The position numbers were made by a program, and so were the translations under genes. A stretch of 51,035 nt of DNA from a virus. Positions 36,995 to 48,463 of the stretch are shown piece by piece. The DNA is taken from the IMG/VR virus record IMGVR_UViG_3300040801_002481, positions 1-51,035 of that record; one strand, 5' to 3'. The notes under the pieces are model-generated. The model saw only the letters and a list, made by a program, of their open reading frames with translations. It ran no database searches and was not told where the DNA came from. Position 1 is the first letter of the stretch. Each line of letters begins with the position of its first letter.

Positions 36995-39900
36995 ATGTCC
37001 TTTTTGGATGAACTGCTGGAAATCAATTCGAACGTAGCTGAGGAAAAGCGACGACGAGTTGAACAAAAAGCACGGGAAAAAGCTGAAGAACAGCGAAGAA
37101 ATAATCCTAGATTTCGCACAGTAGATCCTTCTCTTCTACAACGAGTAGACGGAGATACTTTTTACGATCCTGAACTGGGTCGTAATGTGCGTATTGCTCT
37201 GGGCGATACTTTCGAGTCTGAAAAGAAATATACCGATAGCAATGGTGAAGTACAAAGCTATAACCCTTACACGCATACTCTGAAAAATGGACAGCTTGTA
37301 GAAAAGGACTATGAAAACGATCCTTCCTACCAAGCAGACAAACGAGCTTTCGAGGAAATCTACGACAAGCGTGACGGCTTTTTCCGTAAAGGTGTAACCC
37401 CTGACCAGCTAATGGATGCAGGCAATGCTGCAACTGTAGCACTGGATCGTCGTTTCAGGGAGATGGCCGAACGCGGAGAAAAGTTTACGTATGAAGTAAC
37501 AGGTCTGGATGAATACGGACGAGCTTTGGCTCGTTCTGACGATTCCTTTATCCAGACTTTGGATGATTACGGAACCAGCGTTGGGTACAACGGTAGGTTT
37601 GGTGGACAGCAGCGAGTGACTGACATCCTCTCTGGTGAGATGCTCGAGCGGGAAGAAGCCAAAAGTAGTCGTGGGGCTATCCGGGCAGCAGGAGACTTTA
37701 CAGCACTAGCTGGAACAACTGTACTGAACATCATTGAAGAAGCTGTTCAGATGGTTGGTCAGAAACAGGGCAAAGACCTTGGACGTGTAGAAGATGTAGT
37801 GAATTACATCTTCAGCAGTGATATTGACTTGACGAGCAAGTTCAAAAAAGAGCGAGATGAGTTCTTTAAAAAGAGTTCAGCAGGTATTGAATGGTTCAAA
37901 GATAAAACTACGTCGAAAGCGTACAAGCAGAGCCAAGAAGCTGCTATGCGAGAGTCAATGCTCAATAATGACATCTACGCTTACAACGTGTCTCAATATC
38001 TGGAAAACGGCTACAACCTGACTCAAGCAAAGCTGGCTGCAGGTACAGAAGAAGCAGCAAACACTATCCGTAACCTTGCTCAGTCTCCCGGACGTGTATT
38101 GGATATGACCTTTGAGTCTCTTCCCTACATGTTTGGTGTAGCTGGTATTGGTCGTCTCACAATGTCTGTTGCCATGAGAGGAGTTGGTCAACGGGTTAAA
38201 GACCGTATGGTCAAAAAAGGCATTGATGTCACTACTAAAGAAGGAGCAGAGCTTTTGTCTGCTACCCAAGCAAGGTTTCTGGCATCGGAAGCTGGCAAGA
38301 AGTATCTCCAAAAAGTTGGATCATGGAGTGGTGTAGGAGCCATTGGTGTAACTGAGGGTATGTCTAACGCAGCAGCGGTCTATGACCGTATTTTTGCTAT
38401 GACTCCTGAAGAAGCAATGGAGTCTCAAAAATACCGAGACCTTATTGCTAACGACATGACGCACGAAGAAGCTCTAAGAGAGCTTGCTGAAGAAGCATAC
38501 GAAAACACTTTCTTGTTCACTACTTTGCTTGCTGGTTTTGCCAGTAAGGTGACTGGTATTGCTGGATGGGAATCACGTCTATTTACTACCATGGCAGACA
38601 CTCGAAAAGTTGTGCAAACAGCCACGACTCAAGGAGTGCAGCGAAGTGCCATGCAAAAAGCTCGAGGCTATGGAGTCGAGACTGCTAAATGGGCTGGACG
38701 CAGAGCAATCCCTGGTCTGGGAGAAGCGATAGAAGAATCTGTCCAAAGTGGTGGTGGTCAGTTGGTAAGTGATGCTGTAACGCAGAACGTTACAGGCATT
38801 GACCAAAACCTTGGACAAGGTATCGGTGAAGCAACAGCCACAGGGGCCGCTACAGGGGCTGTCTCGGGTACTGGCATCTCTACTGCTGGCTCTGGCCTTC
38901 GTGCAGCTGGTAGAGGCTTCCTACAAGCTATGGCAGCTGACCAGACGGGAGATGTGGTTACCCCCACTGCTGAACCTGTAACGTTTTCTAATGAACAAAT
39001 AGTCGCCACCCCAGTAAACGAATCGACGGTGCCTTTTGATGCCGATGACCCGGTTGCAGCTGTACAAGCAGCGCTTGAGCCAAACAACCCAGCTGATGGT
39101 CCTGTCATTTTGGCTATCGTTAATGATCTTATTGAAAAAGGTGTAGAGGTTCCTCCTGAAGTAATCCAGCATGCTGAAGCCTTGGATATGGTATTCCGGG
39201 AAAGTGCTTCTGCAGCTGTGGTTGAAGCCAATGACAATGAACAACCTGCTCCGAGAGAAGCAGCGTTCAACTCTGGCCGAGCTCAAGGTGCTGTACCTAA
39301 TGACGCAGAAGGCGCTGCTCTTTACAACATGGGTAAAGAGTTTGAAGAAGCAGCGGTAGAAGCTGCTATTGCACAGCAAGAAGCTGTAGAAGCACAGACA
39401 AAACTAGAAGGACTGGAGAAACCTACACCTGACATTCAGGAAGTACACGCTGAAGTGTGGGGACTTCGTGGCTCTAAAGGTCTTGGTATGCAAGGCTGGG
39501 CCAACAAAATTCAAGAACAAGTTATTGCTAATCGTCCTGGAATGGTCCGAAGTGCGATTGGCGGTATGCGTAATTTCATTGCCACGCAGAAAGCTAAAGC
39601 AGCACGATACCAAGAAGTGCTGAATGCTCCTGAAGCACAACGAGCAGAAGTAGCTGAAGCTAACGGTCTCAAATACGAGAACGAAGCTTCTTTTCAAGGC
39701 ATGGCAAACATCATCAATAAACAGATCTCTGAAATGGAAGCGTTTGCTTCTCGAGTAGAAGAGAGTGTTCCACAGAATTCCCTTTCCCAACAGGAATCTG
39801 GAGCTACTCAAACTACGGCGAGTAGCATTGAAAACGGGGCTGAGTCCCCCCGTGACAGTCAGAGCGTCCCCGAGGTTGCCGGAGAGACCGTGACACAGGA

Positions 39901-42900
39901 GAACACCTCTCCTCCTGTATCAGAGACCGGGGAAGGGCCTTTTACACCCAGCGAGGGACCGCAAGGCAATCAGTCGCAGCCGCAGGCGGAGACTGTGCAG
40001 CCTGGAGGTACCGAAGCTCTAACACTTGAACAGCAAGAAGCACCAGCAGAACTGAATCGTCCTGCAAGTGAAGACCCGAGAACACCAGAAGAAATCGCAG
40101 AATCAATGCGAGAACGCTTCATGCCGCCTAAATTTAGAGATGAAGACGGTAAGCCTGTTCCTGGTGATTCTCGCCTGAAGCGGTCCCTTTTCCGGGACGG
40201 TCTTCGTGAACTGGCAAGTCAGCTGGTACCAAACGGTGGTATTACTTACGTCCGTGACGAAAACGACCAAATTGTTGAACGTACCAAGTCAGAAAATCCT
40301 GACTGGTTCAAAGACAAAGGTTGGTCAATTGCTATCGTAAACAACGCTGTTGAAGCAGCATTGAGCAATAACCCAAATAAAGTTTTGGGCGCACGGCAGC
40401 AACTAATCATTGAAACAATGCTGAATGAGTTGTCAGAGCAGCGTACATTTCAAGGACCGGGACAGCCATACAATAATATGGCTGAACTTATGGCTGCTCA
40501 GCGAGCAGCTAGAGCAGTGTCTGAACAGCAAAACAACCAGACTGAAACAGATTTTACTGATGAAGGTCTGGGTACGCCTATAGAACCTGTTCCAGAAGCT
40601 CCTACAGACATTCCTGACGAGCTATTGGAAGCTCCCCCTATCGATGAGCCACCTCCGAACTTTGAAGAGTTTGCAGAAGAGCTCACGGGGCCTCCCATTG
40701 AAGACGTACCGTTTACTGATGACTTCGTGCCTGAAGACAATCAGGCTGTAGAAGTTGATGCAGACGGTAATCTTATATTTGAAGCTGATGAGGCTTACAG
40801 TATTGACCGTCCGGTTACCGATGAAGAGATTGCCTCACTGGAAGCAACCCTCGATCTCATCACGGAAGAAGAGGGTGCTCCTTCAGCTACCCAGGCAATT
40901 CTGGAGCGAGGCTCCGATATTGCAAGCCAAAATCCTGAGTCTGCTAACAAAATGGCAGGCCGTAGCAAAGCTACTCCGATCCAGGAAATCATTGAAGTAA
41001 CTAGAAACAAGCTCCGTGAATGGAAATTGCCGAGCCAGATTGCTGAAGCTTTCAAAGCCCGCTTTGAACGGACTACCAGTCTCTTTGCTGCATCAGAAAA
41101 CTTTCTCCCTTTACTGCTCAACAAAAGAGCACGGGAAAAGATGGCTGAGAAACTGGGCATGTCCAACAGAGAAAAACAAGGACTGCACAAGCTTGCAACA
41201 TTCACTGACACGTTCGTAGCGAGTCTGGATAAACTCCGCCTCAAGTGGGGAGAGACTGAAGGACAGTCTGCTACCAATAATGATCTGTGGGCAAACAAAG
41301 CAGGTAAGTTTGCTGCTGAGAAGCTTCGTGAATACGGACTCCAGTACTTTTATAACTCTGAAGGAGAACTGGATGGAAACGTAGCTGCAGCTATGGCTGC
41401 TGTAGGCTTTCAGTGGTTAGCTACTCGTGGTGCTGACAGCATGTCCAATGACGAGAAAGCAATCAACGATATACTTTCTCGTGATGAGGATGAAGAAATC
41501 AGCAATGAAGAGTGGGCAGCGTTTGGTCGAGGTACTCCTCGAGCAACTGTTGTACAAACACTTGGTAAGCAGGTTCTCCGTACTCTCAACCTCGAGTTGA
41601 CTAAAGACCCAAACATTGACCGTGCATTTGCCGAACGTATGGAAGTGTCCATCGGCAATATGATTCTAGCCAACATGGTTCAAATGGAAGTTGCTGAGCA
41701 AGTAGAGGTTTCAACCGAGTTTATGGCCGGAGCCTCTCTGAAGTCTGTCTACGAATACCTGGAGCAAAGTGATCCAGAAGGTAACGTTGACGAGGAATAT
41801 TTCAAAGAACTCTACGAAGATAAGCAAGAGCTGTTGAAACAACAATTTGGTATCGACGCAAAGACCTCGACCATGAATATGGTCATGGCTAAAAGCTCTG
41901 AAACTGACCCAGCAATTGCTTCAGAAGAGGTTTACAACATCAAAGAAAACTACCAGGAGTTTCAGGATACGTTCGAAAAGATTTTCAACATGCCTGTAAA
42001 ACAGCGTCCTCCGCTGTTCAAGGAACCGACTGAAGATCAGATCAGCAAGCGGTACAACAAAAAGCCGAACAGCATTCCCAAGAAACTTTTTGACCGCTTG
42101 GTCAAGCAGTCTAAACGTCAGTACTTTGCTGCCCAGCGGACTATTGACAGTTTGGATCGCTTTGAAGACGACGAAATCTACGAAAATATTCTGGGGGCTC
42201 CGAGCAAAGAAGACGTAGACAATGCTCAAGTAAATCGTCAAGCAAGTACCAAATCCAAGCGTGAGCAGGTGGTCCGTTCAGTTGACGGTCTTCGTAAGAC
42301 GGCAACGTTGGCCGCTGGTCGGGCTATGTACTTTATCCATTCTGTGACCTCCTCAGGCCGCATGAATATGGATAGCAATACGATCAACCCACAGAACAAC
42401 ACTATCCATCGCTTCCTGTTCCGTCAGAAAGAGTGGGAAGTGAATGTGCCTATCGGTGCTACCGATGCAGCTGGACGTGAACGTCAGAAAATGTTTCTAC
42501 TGACTGTCGGTCTTGGATTCGACATCGACTTTTCTAAGCAGAGCACGGAAGAAACGCTTCGGCTTATTAACGAAAAGTACCAAAAGCTCGTAGAGAACGG
42601 AACTATCGATGGGATGAATTCCGCAGATCTTACCAATACTCAAAAAGAGCTAATTTATGAGGCGGTTGGATCGCACGGAATGCATGCCTACGCAGCACTG
42701 GAAGCTCTAGCAGCTTGGCATAAAGCTAAAGCAGACGGACAGTCAGAATTCCTAAGTGACCTGCCTATCGAGATCGATGGTAAAACCAACGGGTTTTCTG
42801 CTGGTTTGTTGCAGACTCCTGCTGGGTCTGAACTGCTGAAGTTCCTCGCAGCTACAGGTGTGTACGCAGGACAGGTAGACGAGAACGGTAATCCGATCAC

Positions 42901-45900
42901 GAATTACCCTCAGTGGAAGCAAGGAGAAAACAGCCTCGACAACTACGAAAGTGTTGGAGAAACTTCCGGTAACACGCTTAAAGATTTGAGCCAGGGAAAT
43001 CGTCTCAGTGTCGAAGAAGACGTAGACCCCCCCGTAGAAAACACGGAAAAGAAACCGTTTGCCAAACAAGAGCGAGAAGTACGCCACAGCTTGAGAGATG
43101 TAAACGGAATCAATCTTGTTAATGATTTTGGATTGCTCCAAAAAATCCAAGAGCTGACTAATACCAAAGGCCGTAAATTTGCCAAAGGTCCATTGACTGT
43201 TTTTTCTTACATGGGTGGGATTGACGGTATCAAAGAATCTATTGCCAACACTGCAATGGACAATCTTTGGGAACGTCTCGAGAAAGTCAAAACGTGGGAA
43301 GACTTTGTTACGATTCAGAACCAGATTGCTGACATCGTTAACAACACAATCAACAAGGCTCAACTTGCTGCAGACTCTCCTCTGTACGAGAAGATTGCAA
43401 GTGAGCCCATGATGCCTAAGATGACCCTTGCCCAAGCACAGAAGCTTAACGCACAACCGACTGAATATGCTCAAAACTACACGCTGTCTCCGGGACGTAG
43501 AGATGCTCTGAAACTTGCATACAAAGAAACGTATGGCTATGCAGCACACGTTGCTCTAAACGAAAAAGTAGAAGACTTGAAAGAAGTTCGTTCTGCTGTA
43601 ACTGAAACGTATCAGGCAGCTAACAATCTCTTCCTTGCAATGTGGAGGACTCGGATTGAAGGACTTAAGCAAAAGAACACTACGGGACAAGTGAGTGACG
43701 CTGAACGTAGACAGCTGCTTCAACAAATGATCAAAGAGAGACAGGTTCCTTTTATTCGGAGCCCGCTGTCTGAAACTCAGCTGGATGCTTTGACAATTAC
43801 TGATGATGGTCTGGAGTATCTGGGTGGAACTGATGACTCACGTTTTAAAGGATCAGCGTTCTTTAATCAGCCTACTCAAACCAACACTGAGTCTATTGAT
43901 ACTGATGGGTCAATCGTAGAAAGCAAACCTCAGGCTAAATCTGGTAACCGTCTACGTGGGTTTGAGCCGGGTAGAAGCGTAGGAGTGAGAGCCATTGTGC
44001 AGGCTGTTCACTCTACGGATGGCACTGTAATGTCAAAGATAGTTGCAGAACATCCAGTACTGGGTGTGCATGATGCTGTAGTTGGAAACTTTGAAAACAT
44101 CTTACAGATTGCACAAGAAGCAAACCAAGAGTTTTTTGAGATAATGCGAGATTACGATCTTGTGCAGGAAGCCTGGACCGCAGCAGAAATTATGCTGACA
44201 GCGTTGGATAAAACGCAGATTGGTGTGCAGCCGGAGGTTCAAGCAGCAGCAGTCGCACTACAAAAAGTTATGTTTGTGGGCAAAGAAAATACAGCTTCCT
44301 TTGAGCAGCTTGTGATCAGGAACCGCAGATACAGAGAAAATCTGTTTAGCCGGATCACCGCAGTAAACCAATTTGCGATTGAAGGCGGAGAGTATTTGAC
44401 AAATGGTCAACCTACGCCTGTATCCGCCGAAAGTGCAGAGACCTCTCGACTGATTGACGAGATGCTTGCTCGAGGAGCAAACAAATCTCGAATAATTGTT
44501 GGAACGTGGCTTGCTGAGTCTCACACGGTAGGAGATTTTGTAGAGCTCTTCAGAGGCTTTGTGAACTCCCAGGAGCCCGGAAATGTCCGAGATCAGGGGT
44601 TGGCCTTCCTGGAAGATTTGAGGGCGGTAGACGGCTCTGTACGAGCTCTCCCCAGCAATAATATCCAAGGGAACGTACTGGTCGAGAATGGAATCCTGTA
44701 TTACAGCACTCGTCCGACGAAAACGTTTATTCCGGACATGCTGGAAGCCTTGAATGAAATGCAGGAAACTCCTGCTGAAACAGTGCCGGATCTGAATCTG
44801 GAAGACGACACCGATACGACGACTCACGAACAGCTGACGCTTGGTCTTGGTTCTAGCAACAGCACTATGGAAACCAACAAGTGGGTCAACAGACTTGAAG
44901 AATCTTTGACTGCTGACAACTTAAAAACGGTACTTAAAGGTATCCGTAGCATGGAAGCAGGTAAGCTCAGTGACGCTGGCAAAGCAATGTTGGAAGAACT
45001 GGTTAACACGTTCATTCTGCCTACGCTTACTGAAGCTGACAGAGTGAAGCTGAAGCTTGGCACTAATCCTGATGCTCGAGCCAACAATGGACTCGAAGTA
45101 AACGGGACTGTGTATGTGGAAGCAGCTGGTGCTGTGAACTCCAGTAACGTAGACATGAGCCTTGAAGAAGTTACGGTACATGAAGTAATGCATGCCATTA
45201 CTCGCCATGTACTTAATGATTCTCCTGAACTACAACAGCGTACTCAGCAACTGTTTAACATTGCTCTGGATGCTCTGGAGCAAAAATTTGATGGCAAAGG
45301 GTGGAAGGCATTTCTCACTGATCCAAACTCTTATAACAAGGCAGAAGAAGCAGCAGCAAAAGCTCGTTGGGACTATCTGTTTAAAAACACGAACCAGCAA
45401 GTTGGTAGAGAAGGCGAACAAGCTCCTAGATACTTGCATGAATTCCTCGCACTAGCTACGACGAACCCAGCGTTTAACGAAGCACTGAGTGGAGTTACTT
45501 GGGAAGCTACGCCTGACCGAATCTGGACTGGTGATTTGGTTGAGTCAATTGCTAACCTGGTTTCCATGGTATTCCATCATGCTCGCAAGATGCTGACTGG
45601 AGTGGACATCAACAAAGAGATGAACACTGAAGTGGCTGAACTTCTAAAAGACATCACAAAACTCCGAGCTCAGCAACAGCATCGCTTAAAATGGTTGTCT
45701 GACACTATACAGAATCTTGGTGATAAGTCTGATGACTTTGTACTGGGAATTGCAGAAAACATGACCAAAGCTCTTCGTAAATGGGGAGAGGGTAAAGAGT
45801 CTCCTAAGCTGGATAGTGATGGTAGGAATCGACTGCAGCGTACTGTACAAGCTCTGAAAAAAGCTGGTATTGACGGTGCTCAAGCTGACATTGATTCAGT

Positions 45901-48463
45901 GAGAGCAGTACTGGCTGACTACTTTGAAGATGTAAACCAAAACAACTGGTTCTTTGAAATTCTATCTGAAGTATTGCCGTACCCAGAGAAAAACAAATCC
46001 TGGATTAAGATGCTTCGTCGTTCAGTAGTTGCTATCGACATGGCACGACAGCAAGCTAACGAGCACACTCGTGACACACTGTTGAAAGCTTTTGATCCCA
46101 AGGTGAAGCTGGTAGAAAACCAGAGAGAAGCAGTTACTTACGCAATCCTGAAAACGGATCTTGGCGCTTTGTTCCGTAATCCAACCATTACGTACCCGGC
46201 GCTGCTGGAGCTCCTCAAGAGCGGAAGCAGCAGACGGGCAATGAGAACAAAGCTCCGAAATGATCTTAGAGCAATGCTTCCTCAAGGACGAGATGGAGAC
46301 GTTATCTATGAATACTTTTTGAAGCGAGCAGAAGGGTTGGGCCACCTGATGATTCACGGTATCCCGAAATTGCCTAACCAAGAACAAAATGCTCTGCAGA
46401 TCGCTTCGCAGGTATCATTGGATTCTCGAGACAGAGTAGACATTGGGGACGTTAACGATGACCTCGTGGCTGTATTGGATCAATTGGCTAGTCTTGATGC
46501 GATCAGCTCACAAGCATCGAAAGACCCCAAAATGCTAGACATGGGTGTCCGAGTGCTTGAGCATGAGATGAACCGTAACACTGACACTAACGGATTCACT
46601 GAACTGGTGAACCTGTCTATTGCTCATGTAGACAACTCAAAAGAGAAGCTGTTTGATAACAACCCTATGCAAATGGTTAAGGGTTACATGTACGAAGTGT
46701 ACGACGACAACATCGACATGGAAATTAACTTCGATGATGACGCTACCAACATAATGATGGAAGCCAAAGGCTATAAGCGTGTTGAGTCTCTGCCTCAAGA
46801 ACCTAACGACACCTCACAGCCTAAAGCTATGTACGTTTCTCTTGCTGGTTTGGCTACTTATCAGAAGTCGGTAATTTCCTTGACCAACCCAAGGAAACGA
46901 GGACAGAGCCTGTTGGATTCTTACAACGTAGGCATGGACGAGCAGGGCAGAAAAATGTCAAAAGTGCTGGCACGTCGAGCACTTGATGAAACGAAAAAAA
47001 GGCATGCTCGTAATGCTCGTGCAGTAAAGAACGGTCAGCCTATGGACGGTGACATCTTTATGCTGCCTATCTTCGACGACAAAGGTAACGTGGCTGATTA
47101 CCGTTACGTAATGAGCGAAGACACGAAAAAAGGAATCCTGAAAAAGAGGGATACTTTTGATGAAGTGTTCCCGCGTATGGTTGCTGCTATCGGTGACCGC
47201 AGAGCTACCCGAGACATCAACAGTCAAGTTGTAGAAATGCTTAAAGATGAGTGGGTACGCTTTGGTAAACCTGACGACAACGGCGTACCTCCTACAAAAA
47301 CTGTGTTCATCAGCATTAGCCCGAACTCGCAAGATGAACGAGCCAGGGAAATGTGGGCCTTGCTTCCAGATGAAACAAAGCGAGCAGCAGAACAAGAGTT
47401 TGGAAGAAAAGAACTGCGGGTACGTAGTGATGCAGTGAACCTCATCTTTGGTTTCCGCAAGCTTGCAATATCCAATAACGAATTTCTGGGACGCTCAGCA
47501 CCTGCTGTCAAAGTTGCTGAAACAGTGTGGCAAGAAGCTGTAAGCTTTCTCCGCTACAGCGTTGCAATCACTACACCTGCTGTTGTGGTTGGTAACATTG
47601 TATCTAACATGGCTGTATTGCTGACGGAGGGCATTCCTCCCAGTTACATCTACAAGCACTCCTTCACGGCAGTTAAGTCTCTGCGGAAGTACCAACGAGA
47701 AGTAAAAGAGTCTGATCACCTGAAGCGGCGGATTGAAAGTGAAAGGGTACGTGGAAGAGACACTTCCAAGATGGAAGCTCAGTTGGCAAGGTTGCAAGCT
47801 AACCTGCGAGCTAACCCCGTAGATCAGCTGGTACAGGAAGGACTGTTTACCTCTATCGTAGAAGACCTTGGATATGATCAGCAGAGAACGTCTACCAAGT
47901 TGCTCAACAAAGCAATGAACAAGGTGAGCAATACGACAGGACTAAATGCAGTTACCACTGTAGGAAAAGAACTGTTCATGGTTCCTGGTTCACAGACAGG
48001 TAATGCTGCACTGGTAGCAACTCAGATGGGTGACTTCACTGCCCGGTATGTCAAGATGAAATACGACATCGAAGAAAAGGGAGTCAGCAGAGATGATGCT
48101 ATTAATGATGCTCTGCAAAAGTTCATCTACTACAACATGCCTCAGAACAAGTACCTTCAGTGGATGAACGACAATGGCTTCATGATGTTCACTAAGTTCT
48201 TCCTAAGAATTCAGCCTGTAGCTATAAAACTATTCGCTGATAACCCTGCTCGAGCAATGACAGTACTAGCAGCCCAACGTGGTGTGTTGTCTAATATCGA
48301 CAGTGTGTGGGGTGAAAACACTGCAAATTATGCTTTCATGAACGGAGCTACTAGGAAATTTGAGCCAACTCCTTGGCAGCACTTCACAGGTGACGGGAAA
48401 TCAGACAGCATCCTGCGACCTGCTCTATTGGATTGGCTCTCAGTGTTTGGAATTGGAGATTAA
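36995..48463 (+). CDS. Virion-packaged RNA polymerase, giant single-subunit type (N4 gp50-like vRNAP)
   Basis: 3,822 residues with AGGAAG before the ATG. The polymerase core carries TSSGR at 1785-1789 (the TxxGR form typical of vRNAP), motif A D1928 (IEIDGKTNG), motif B R2060, K2064 and Y2072, an H-S-x-D segment at 2339-2342, and motif C HD at 2359-2360. It is packaged, ejected and transcribes early genes from hairpin promoters. The N-terminal arm has glycine/alanine-rich, membrane-like segments (about 350-420, 560-660) and two disordered linkers (about 927-1030 and 1175-1270). After the core, HEVMH at 2729-2733 and HEFLA at 2815-2819 look like a gluzincin metallopeptidase. N4 vRNAP is about 3,500 residues, so this one is longer, mostly before the core. 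Confidence 0.93.
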   Translation: MSFLDELLEINSNVAEEKRRRVEQKAREKAEEQRRNNPRFRTVDPSLLQRVDGDTFYDPELGRNVRIALGDTFESEKKYTDSNGEVQSYNPYTHTLKNGQLVEKDYENDPSYQADKRAFEEIYDKRDGFFRKGVTPDQLMDAGNAATVALDRRFREMAERGEKFTYEVTGLDEYGRALARSDDSFIQTLDDYGTSVGYNGRFGGQQRVTDILSGEMLEREEAKSSRGAIRAAGDFTALAGTTVLNIIEEAVQMVGQKQGKDLGRVEDVVNYIFSSDIDLTSKFKKERDEFFKKSSAGIEWFKDKTTSKAYKQSQEAAMRESMLNNDIYAYNVSQYLENGYNLTQAKLAAGTEEAANTIRNLAQSPGRVLDMTFESLPYMFGVAGIGRLTMSVAMRGVGQRVKDRMVKKGIDVTTKEGAELLSATQARFLASEAGKKYLQKVGSWSGVGAIGVTEGMSNAAAVYDRIFAMTPEEAMESQKYRDLIANDMTHEEALRELAEEAYENTFLFTTLLAGFASKVTGIAGWESRLFTTMADTRKVVQTATTQGVQRSAMQKARGYGVETAKWAGRRAIPGLGEAIEESVQSGGGQLVSDAVTQNVTGIDQNLGQGIGEATATGAATGAVSGTGISTAGSGLRAAGRGFLQAMAADQTGDVVTPTAEPVTFSNEQIVATPVNESTVPFDADDPVAAVQAALEPNNPADGPVILAIVNDLIEKGVEVPPEVIQHAEALDMVFRESASAAVVEANDNEQPAPREAAFNSGRAQGAVPNDAEGAALYNMGKEFEEAAVEAAIAQQEAVEAQTKLEGLEKPTPDIQEVHAEVWGLRGSKGLGMQGWANKIQEQVIANRPGMVRSAIGGMRNFIATQKAKAARYQEVLNAPEAQRAEVAEANGLKYENEASFQGMANIINKQISEMEAFASRVEESVPQNSLSQQESGATQTTASSIENGAESPRDSQSVPEVAGETVTQENTSPPVSETGEGPFTPSEGPQGNQSQPQAETVQPGGTEALTLEQQEAPAELNRPASEDPRTPEEIAESMRERFMPPKFRDEDGKPVPGDSRLKRSLFRDGLRELASQLVPNGGITYVRDENDQIVERTKSENPDWFKDKGWSIAIVNNAVEAALSNNPNKVLGARQQLIIETMLNELSEQRTFQGPGQPYNNMAELMAAQRAARAVSEQQNNQTETDFTDEGLGTPIEPVPEAPTDIPDELLEAPPIDEPPPNFEEFAEELTGPPIEDVPFTDDFVPEDNQAVEVDADGNLIFEADEAYSIDRPVTDEEIASLEATLDLITEEEGAPSATQAILERGSDIASQNPESANKMAGRSKATPIQEIIEVTRNKLREWKLPSQIAEAFKARFERTTSLFAASENFLPLLLNKRAREKMAEKLGMSNREKQGLHKLATFTDTFVASLDKLRLKWGETEGQSATNNDLWANKAGKFAAEKLREYGLQYFYNSEGELDGNVAAAMAAVGFQWLATRGADSMSNDEKAINDILSRDEDEEISNEEWAAFGRGTPRATVVQTLGKQVLRTLNLELTKDPNIDRAFAERMEVSIGNMILANMVQMEVAEQVEVSTEFMAGASLKSVYEYLEQSDPEGNVDEEYFKELYEDKQELLKQQFGIDAKTSTMNMVMAKSSETDPAIASEEVYNIKENYQEFQDTFEKIFNMPVKQRPPLFKEPTEDQISKRYNKKPNSIPKKLFDRLVKQSKRQYFAAQRTIDSLDRFEDDEIYENILGAPSKEDVDNAQVNRQASTKSKREQVVRSVDGLRKTATLAAGRAMYFIHSVTSSGRMNMDSNTINPQNNTIHRFLFRQKEWEVNVPIGATDAAGRERQKMFLLTVGLGFDIDFSKQSTEETLRLINEKYQKLVENGTIDGMNSADLTNTQKELIYEAVGSHGMHAYAALEALAAWHKAKADGQSEFLSDLPIEIDGKTNGFSAGLLQTPAGSELLKFLAATGVYAGQVDENGNPITNYPQWKQGENSLDNYESVGETSGNTLKDLSQGNRLSVEEDVDPPVENTEKKPFAKQEREVRHSLRDVNGINLVNDFGLLQKIQELTNTKGRKFAKGPLTVFSYMGGIDGIKESIANTAMDNLWERLEKVKTWEDFVTIQNQIADIVNNTINKAQLAADSPLYEKIASEPMMPKMTLAQAQKLNAQPTEYAQNYTLSPGRRDALKLAYKETYGYAAHVALNEKVEDLKEVRSAVTETYQAANNLFLAMWRTRIEGLKQKNTTGQVSDAERRQLLQQMIKERQVPFIRSPLSETQLDALTITDDGLEYLGGTDDSRFKGSAFFNQPTQTNTESIDTDGSIVESKPQAKSGNRLRGFEPGRSVGVRAIVQAVHSTDGTVMSKIVAEHPVLGVHDAVVGNFENILQIAQEANQEFFEIMRDYDLVQEAWTAAEIMLTALDKTQIGVQPEVQAAAVALQKVMFVGKENTASFEQLVIRNRRYRENLFSRITAVNQFAIEGGEYLTNGQPTPVSAESAETSRLIDEMLARGANKSRIIVGTWLAESHTVGDFVELFRGFVNSQEPGNVRDQGLAFLEDLRAVDGSVRALPSNNIQGNVLVENGILYYSTRPTKTFIPDMLEALNEMQETPAETVPDLNLEDDTDTTTHEQLTLGLGSSNSTMETNKWVNRLEESLTADNLKTVLKGIRSMEAGKLSDAGKAMLEELVNTFILPTLTEADRVKLKLGTNPDARANNGLEVNGTVYVEAAGAVNSSNVDMSLEEVTVHEVMHAITRHVLNDSPELQQRTQQLFNIALDALEQKFDGKGWKAFLTDPNSYNKAEEAAAKARWDYLFKNTNQQVGREGEQAPRYLHEFLALATTNPAFNEALSGVTWEATPDRIWTGDLVESIANLVSMVFHHARKMLTGVDINKEMNTEVAELLKDITKLRAQQQHRLKWLSDTIQNLGDKSDDFVLGIAENMTKALRKWGEGKESPKLDSDGRNRLQRTVQALKKAGIDGAQADIDSVRAVLADYFEDVNQNNWFFEILSEVLPYPEKNKSWIKMLRRSVVAIDMARQQANEHTRDTLLKAFDPKVKLVENQREAVTYAILKTDLGALFRNPTITYPALLELLKSGSSRRAMRTKLRNDLRAMLPQGRDGDVIYEYFLKRAEGLGHLMIHGIPKLPNQEQNALQIASQVSLDSRDRVDIGDVNDDLVAVLDQLASLDAISSQASKDPKMLDMGVRVLEHEMNRNTDTNGFTELVNLSIAHVDNSKEKLFDNNPMQMVKGYMYEVYDDNIDMEINFDDDATNIMMEAKGYKRVESLPQEPNDTSQPKAMYVSLAGLATYQKSVISLTNPRKRGQSLLDSYNVGMDEQGRKMSKVLARRALDETKKRHARNARAVKNGQPMDGDIFMLPIFDDKGNVADYRYVMSEDTKKGILKKRDTFDEVFPRMVAAIGDRRATRDINSQVVEMLKDEWVRFGKPDDNGVPPTKTVFISISPNSQDERAREMWALLPDETKRAAEQEFGRKELRVRSDAVNLIFGFRKLAISNNEFLGRSAPAVKVAETVWQEAVSFLRYSVAITTPAVVVGNIVSNMAVLLTEGIPPSYIYKHSFTAVKSLRKYQREVKESDHLKRRIESERVRGRDTSKMEAQLARLQANLRANPVDQLVQEGLFTSIVEDLGYDQQRTSTKLLNKAMNKVSNTTGLNAVTTVGKELFMVPGSQTGNAALVATQMGDFTARYVKMKYDIEEKGVSRDDAINDALQKFIYYNMPQNKYLQWMNDNGFMMFTKFFLRIQPVAIKLFADNPARAMTVLAAQRGVLSNIDSVWGENTANYAFMNGATRKFEPTPWQHFTGDGKSDSILRPALLDWLSVFGIGD

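Follow-up and report, generated by a model that had tools for sequence, protein, structure and literature searches.

The question raised by this locus is whether the virion RNA polymerase (vRNAP) encoded in the window, the whole stretch of 51,035 nucleotides analysed here, carries a zinc peptidase-like site, and how this site is related to the one described in phage N4. By itself the window makes up a viral record of 51 kb. The polymerase gene and its catalytic motifs, which were read from the translation, are listed below.

36995..48463, plus strand: virion RNA polymerase (vRNAP, N4 gp50-type), 3822 amino acid residues, PHROG phrog_2206 'virion RNA polymerase' at E=0
42347..44077, plus strand: T7-type polymerase motifs
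42347, plus strand: TSSGRM, at residue 1785
42770, plus strand: EIDGKTN, motif A, at residue 1926
43169, plus strand: GRKFAKG, motif B, at residue 2059
Residues 2358-2361, plus strand: VHDA (in GVHDA), motif C, with His 2359

The motif names follow those of T7-like RNA polymerases. The fragment HSTD at residue 2339 was considered as motif C and was replaced by VHDA. The family phrog_2206 matches the protein across three stretches, the best N4 PDB chain is found at E 1.4e-14, and in a phmmer comparison residues 2714-3757 align with N4 residues 2441-3448. This homology over the polymerase and C-terminal domains assigns the vRNAP to the N4 type (Schitoviridae). Upstream of the gene, PHROG matches reveal terminase, portal, tape-measure-like, major head and further late genes in the N4 order; the gene directly preceding the vRNAP has no PHROG match, and the late-gene neighbourhood is still N4-like. 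The overall layout of the protein is also that of N4: an N-terminal part, a T7-like polymerase, a zincin region and a large C2 region. Between the N-terminal and polymerase parts there is a long Pro/Glu/Gln-rich stretch (window 39782-40864, approximately residues 930-1290) with several PP pairs, which is absent from the relatives examined. A DNA search of phages for a near match to the gene, and an IMG/VR search for close relatives of its zincin region, returned none.

A zincin in N4-type vRNAP has already been published. Iyer et al. assigned the HExxH region of N4 vRNAP to the zincin metallopeptidases in 2017 and discussed both self-processing and host targets for it (PMC5512222), and a 2021 review restates the assignment (PMC8472413). 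The initial annotation, which knew of no peptidase in N4 vRNAP, was mistaken on this point; its central idea is not new, and the functions it proposed are the same as those of 2017. In a 2025 cryo-EM preprint on N4, residues 2124-2375 are designated C1 and the HExxH is noted, with zinc mentioned solely in naming the motif, while residues 2376-3500 are designated C2, for which no structural homologue was found (PMC12633501). What is new here is that the HExxH occurs at two tandem positions which, by their profiles, are homologous, and that the putative active site of the window protein lies in the copy other than that of N4.

The sample surveyed consisted of 19 annotated phage vRNAPs, N4, the window and 80 IMG/VR loci, the latter collected through the C2 region and not through the motif. 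The 82 non-redundant vRNAPs were aligned; their rows are not independent, 67 being left after merging at 85% identity or more. The conserved HExxH occupies two columns of this alignment, one approximately 1240-1353 residues from the C-terminus (Z1) and the other approximately 970-1115 residues from it (Z2). It is found at Z1 only in 52 proteins, at Z2 only in 28 (the window included) and at both positions in two; none of the 82 has neither. The third-ligand Glu accompanies the HExxH in all 84 domains (Z1 54/54, Z2 30/30). With a conservation cut-off of 85%, the Z1 columns which pass are H, E, H and E alone, and the same four stand at 100% in Z2. In the vRNAP of Alteromonas phage AD45-P1 (L014 840-12522), which is outside the 82 and carries a potential frameshift according to its annotation, the recognisable Z2 reads EEVVH, with the first His lost and the third Glu kept. 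The vRNAP of Roseovarius Plymouth podovirus 1 (L015) has an extra HExxH (VVIHEMAH) at residue 1291, in its N-terminal half, in addition to the one at Z1.

In the window the domain is found at the Z2 position, with the following parts.

44849..45574, plus strand: Z2 zincin-like domain, about residues 2619-2860, delimited by the Z2 profile, the aligned orthologues and an AlphaFold2 model
45170..45199, plus strand: VTVHEVMHAI, with H2729 and H2733 as predicted zinc ligands and E2730 as predicted general base
45434..45475, plus strand: LHEFLALATTNPAF, starting at residue 2814, with E2816 as predicted third zinc ligand, followed by F2817
45575..48460, plus strand: C2 region, the remainder of the C-terminal domain, alignable across Schitoviridae and the basis of the tree

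The Z2 profile, of whose 30 training rows the window is one, matches the protein at residues 2637-2853 with E 2e-51. The fragment HEVMH (residues 2729-2733, positions 45179-45193) is the sole HExxH in the chain. Its location 370 residues beyond His 2359 of motif C, together with E2816, was described in the initial annotation and is confirmed in the translation. The gluzincin-type role given there to E2816 agrees with its position on a later predicted helix and with the invariance of H, E, H and E in all 30 vRNAPs having an intact HExxH at Z2; coordination of a metal by this residue is predicted. The range 45122-45460 given for the feature contains the site, but its end cuts through the second motif.

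The two positions were compared by hhalign. Intact Z1 and intact Z2, taken as non-overlapping cuts, align at 98.9% (E 3e-17) with the HExxH motifs matched to each other and likewise the Glu residues, intact Z2 aligns with the segment at the same place in the N4-type proteins at 99.8% (E 1e-30), and Z1 aligns with this ligand-less Z2, again in non-overlapping cuts, at 84.5% (E 7e-6). By these profile alignments Z1 and Z2 are homologous with their motifs in register, and the Z2 of the window type and of the N4 type are the same domain. The Z2 profile, which also includes N4-type Z2 rows, matches N4 itself at residues 2345-2613 with E 8e-32. This section of about 2345-2613 is thus, by homology, a Z2 without zinc ligands, lying largely within 'C2'.

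In the Z2 of the N4-type proteins the site is lost as a whole. Among their 52 Z2 domains the two His residues are found together in none and the third-ligand Glu is absent from all, while the scaffold positions corresponding to E2725 (46/52), A2788 (47/52) and F2817 (51/52) are kept; in intact Z2, Glu and Phe at 2816/2817 are each present in 30/30. The second His and the third-ligand Glu are replaced by Glu and Arg in 22 of the 52. Such a pair could take over from the metal by forming a salt bridge, for which the count is weak evidence since many of the 22 rows are related. Conservation of H2729, E2730, H2733 and E2816, which the initial annotation proposed as a check, therefore holds without exception among intact Z2 domains and fails in the N4-type Z2. 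Loss of the ligands from an otherwise kept region, named there as an outcome that would speak against the site, is literally what the N4-type lineages display, but in these the motif is kept in the neighbouring copy.

The intact site of N4 is in Z1 (H2228, E2229, H2232 and E2310). The C1 or MPTase domain of N4 and the window domain are homologous, and in both an HExxH and, after it, a Glu occur in the stretch that separates the polymerase from the large C-terminal domain. However, the domain is present twice in N4-type phages, with the intact Z1 preceding a Z2 devoid of the metal site, and once in the window, as an intact Z2. In the window vRNAP no Z1 was found, the Z1 profile being significant at the Z2 site only, and the domain does not precede a ligand-less Z2 as an orthologue of C1 should. 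By its alignment position, then, the window domain is not the counterpart of the HExxH domain of N4, whose intact site lies in the preceding copy. The Z1 profile was also run at full length against 18 of the 28 Z2-only rows, as well as against L102, which duplicates pVa5; no second domain was found directly before Z2, the profile matching either the Z2 site or nothing at that place. In L077 (residues 1371-1526) and L093 (residues 656-811) a Z1-like stretch without HExxH occurs far upstream of Z2.

The vRNAPs of several Vibrio Schitoviridae (VCO139, phi50-12, VBP32, pVa5, PhiImVa-1 and D456) have an intact Z2 only, as does the window. Their third-ligand motif is similar, YLHEFVALGLTN in VCO139 and YLHEFLALATTN in the window; the identity over the domain is 19-26%, and the window protein is longer, with its Pro/Glu-rich linker. 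Vibrio phage PG11 and IMG/VR locus L033, the two proteins with both motifs, share the intact Z2 with the window but have an intact Z1 besides. A Z1-type zincin is also found (E 3e-19) in the internal virion protein of LUZ19 and other phages of the phiKMV type (residues 419-557 of chain G in PDB 9sfn; this 139-residue piece is 100% identical in LUZ19 gp37). Unlike the window protein, its carrier is not a polymerase and belongs to smaller podoviruses. Its presence there indicates that the module recurs in ejected proteins. The LUZ19-type protein is annotated 'with endolysin domain', and a weaker Z1-type relative occurs in the DarB-like protein of Serratia phage Parlo.

AlphaFold2 models of the window Z2 and of the Z1 of L034 are of moderate quality, with mean pLDDT of 70 and 71. 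In the window model HEVMH is located on a predicted helix (residues 2723-2742) and E2816 on another (residues 2812-2823), the arrangement expected of gluzincins; pLDDT is about 88-96 around the HExxH helix, while the β-sheet is ill-defined and its strands are poorly predicted. The L034 model (helix 42-57, strands 62-66, 88-91 and 96-100, helix 111-136) has the zincin order of a helix, three strands, the HExxH helix and the Glu helix. Pfam matches are all below cut-off: DUF2201_N for the window, and SprT-like, M91 and MPTase-PolyVal for relatives. In a Foldseek search of the PDB the top match is N4 vRNAP (E 0.1, poor superposition). With a tandem model, anthrax lethal factor is among the top matches (E about 1, prob 0.35-0.38); its catalytic domain, a gluzincin, has HExxH and a downstream Glu as in the window, and the fold match is non-significant here. 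An HHpred link of N4 to lethal factor is published. In the viral library, phage proteins including vRNAPs are on top; lower down, a crAss-like phage 'RNAP associated protein fused to zincin protease' (BFVD A0A345MT41_2) is a weak fold match to the window domain. The structural comparison advised in the initial annotation thus gave confident helices for both motifs, but an ill-defined sheet and weak Foldseek matches, which are consistent with a zincin fold without proving it. Taken together, the invariant H, E, H and E, the profile homology to Z1 and the confident motif helices in the model make it well supported that the window vRNAP carries a predicted zincin-type domain with Glu as third ligand.

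It is most likely that H2729, H2733 and E2816 of Z2 would hold one zinc, that E2730 would serve as general base, and that the domain would act as a peptidase delivered together with the polymerase. Catalysis is favoured because E2730, which is not a ligand, is nevertheless invariant in 30/30. We give roughly even chances to a triggered, limited cleavage of either the vRNAP chain or its ejection partners, taking place while these enter the cell or thereafter; the polymerase could, for example, be freed in this way from the remainder of the chain. This possibility is preferred to a host target and to a non-proteolytic site. The C-terminal domain of N4 represses transcription by the polymerase in vitro (PMC12633501), so its release would be of use. 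N4 vRNAP is packaged unprocessed and full length (PMC5512222) and the recombinant full-length protein is not degraded (PMC12633501); self-cleavage would consequently need a later trigger. The weak structural matches, the ill-defined sheet and AD45-P1 without its first His count against this explanation.

The same packaging of N4 vRNAP at full length, with no self-processing before delivery, would suit a peptidase aimed at a host protein as an injected effector. A host target has been proposed for the MPTases of polyvalent proteins (PMC5512222), and kindred domains occur in phage proteins that are likewise believed to be injected, the phiKMV-type internal virion proteins and the DarB-like protein. 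Since the zincin is present in nearly all sampled vRNAPs across very different hosts, a phage substrate may fit somewhat better, and we consider the host target rather unlikely. Less probable still is a metal site which is structural or non-proteolytic, serving fold support or other HExxH chemistry. The N4 authors raised the HExxH enzymes associated with radical SAM (PMC12633501), and neither proteolysis nor an activity assay for the vRNAP zincin is reported in the literature searched. However, the non-ligand Glu of the HExxH is invariant in 84/84 intact domains, which would not be expected if the site were purely structural; the third ligand is gluzincin-like, a Glu from a helix further along the chain; and the N4-type Z2 lost the whole site but kept scaffold residues, showing that the scaffold can persist without metal. 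HExxH by itself is short and might be suspected of having arisen by chance in a helical stretch. The composition-based expectation is 0.025 per protein, at least one HExxH occurs in 2.4% of shuffles, and the invariance of the motif with its third ligand over 30 divergent orthologues refutes this reading, to which we attach a negligible probability. A Pro-Pro endopeptidase, suggested by a published Phyre2 match of CB1 to PPEP-2 and by the Pro-rich linker of the window, was rejected as a general mechanism since the other 20 vRNAPs have 0-4 PP pairs.

A quick tree of C2 with the zincin columns excluded places the Z1-only rows on one side and the Z2 rows with both double proteins on the other, and requires three state changes; the split is weakly supported. 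So few changes do not support the idea that the active site has often moved from one copy to the other. A possible history, to which we give somewhat less than an even chance, is that vRNAPs descend from an ancestor with two tandem zincins. The N4-type proteins would have kept the catalytic site in Z1, and their metal-free Z2, the first part of 'C2', would persist as a pseudo-peptidase with a structural or regulatory role. In the lineage of the window, which has no Z1, the site would have been kept in Z2. Cutting would be required for the injected polymerase to work, hence the retention of at least one functional site.

The value of the tandem arrangement lies in the exact residues which it offers for a test. 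It predicts that E2229 of N4 should matter, while the second copy of N4 would already be a natural catalytic loss. The arrangement also accounts for the origin of about 240 residues of N4 C2, which is without a homologue in the structure paper (PMC12633501).
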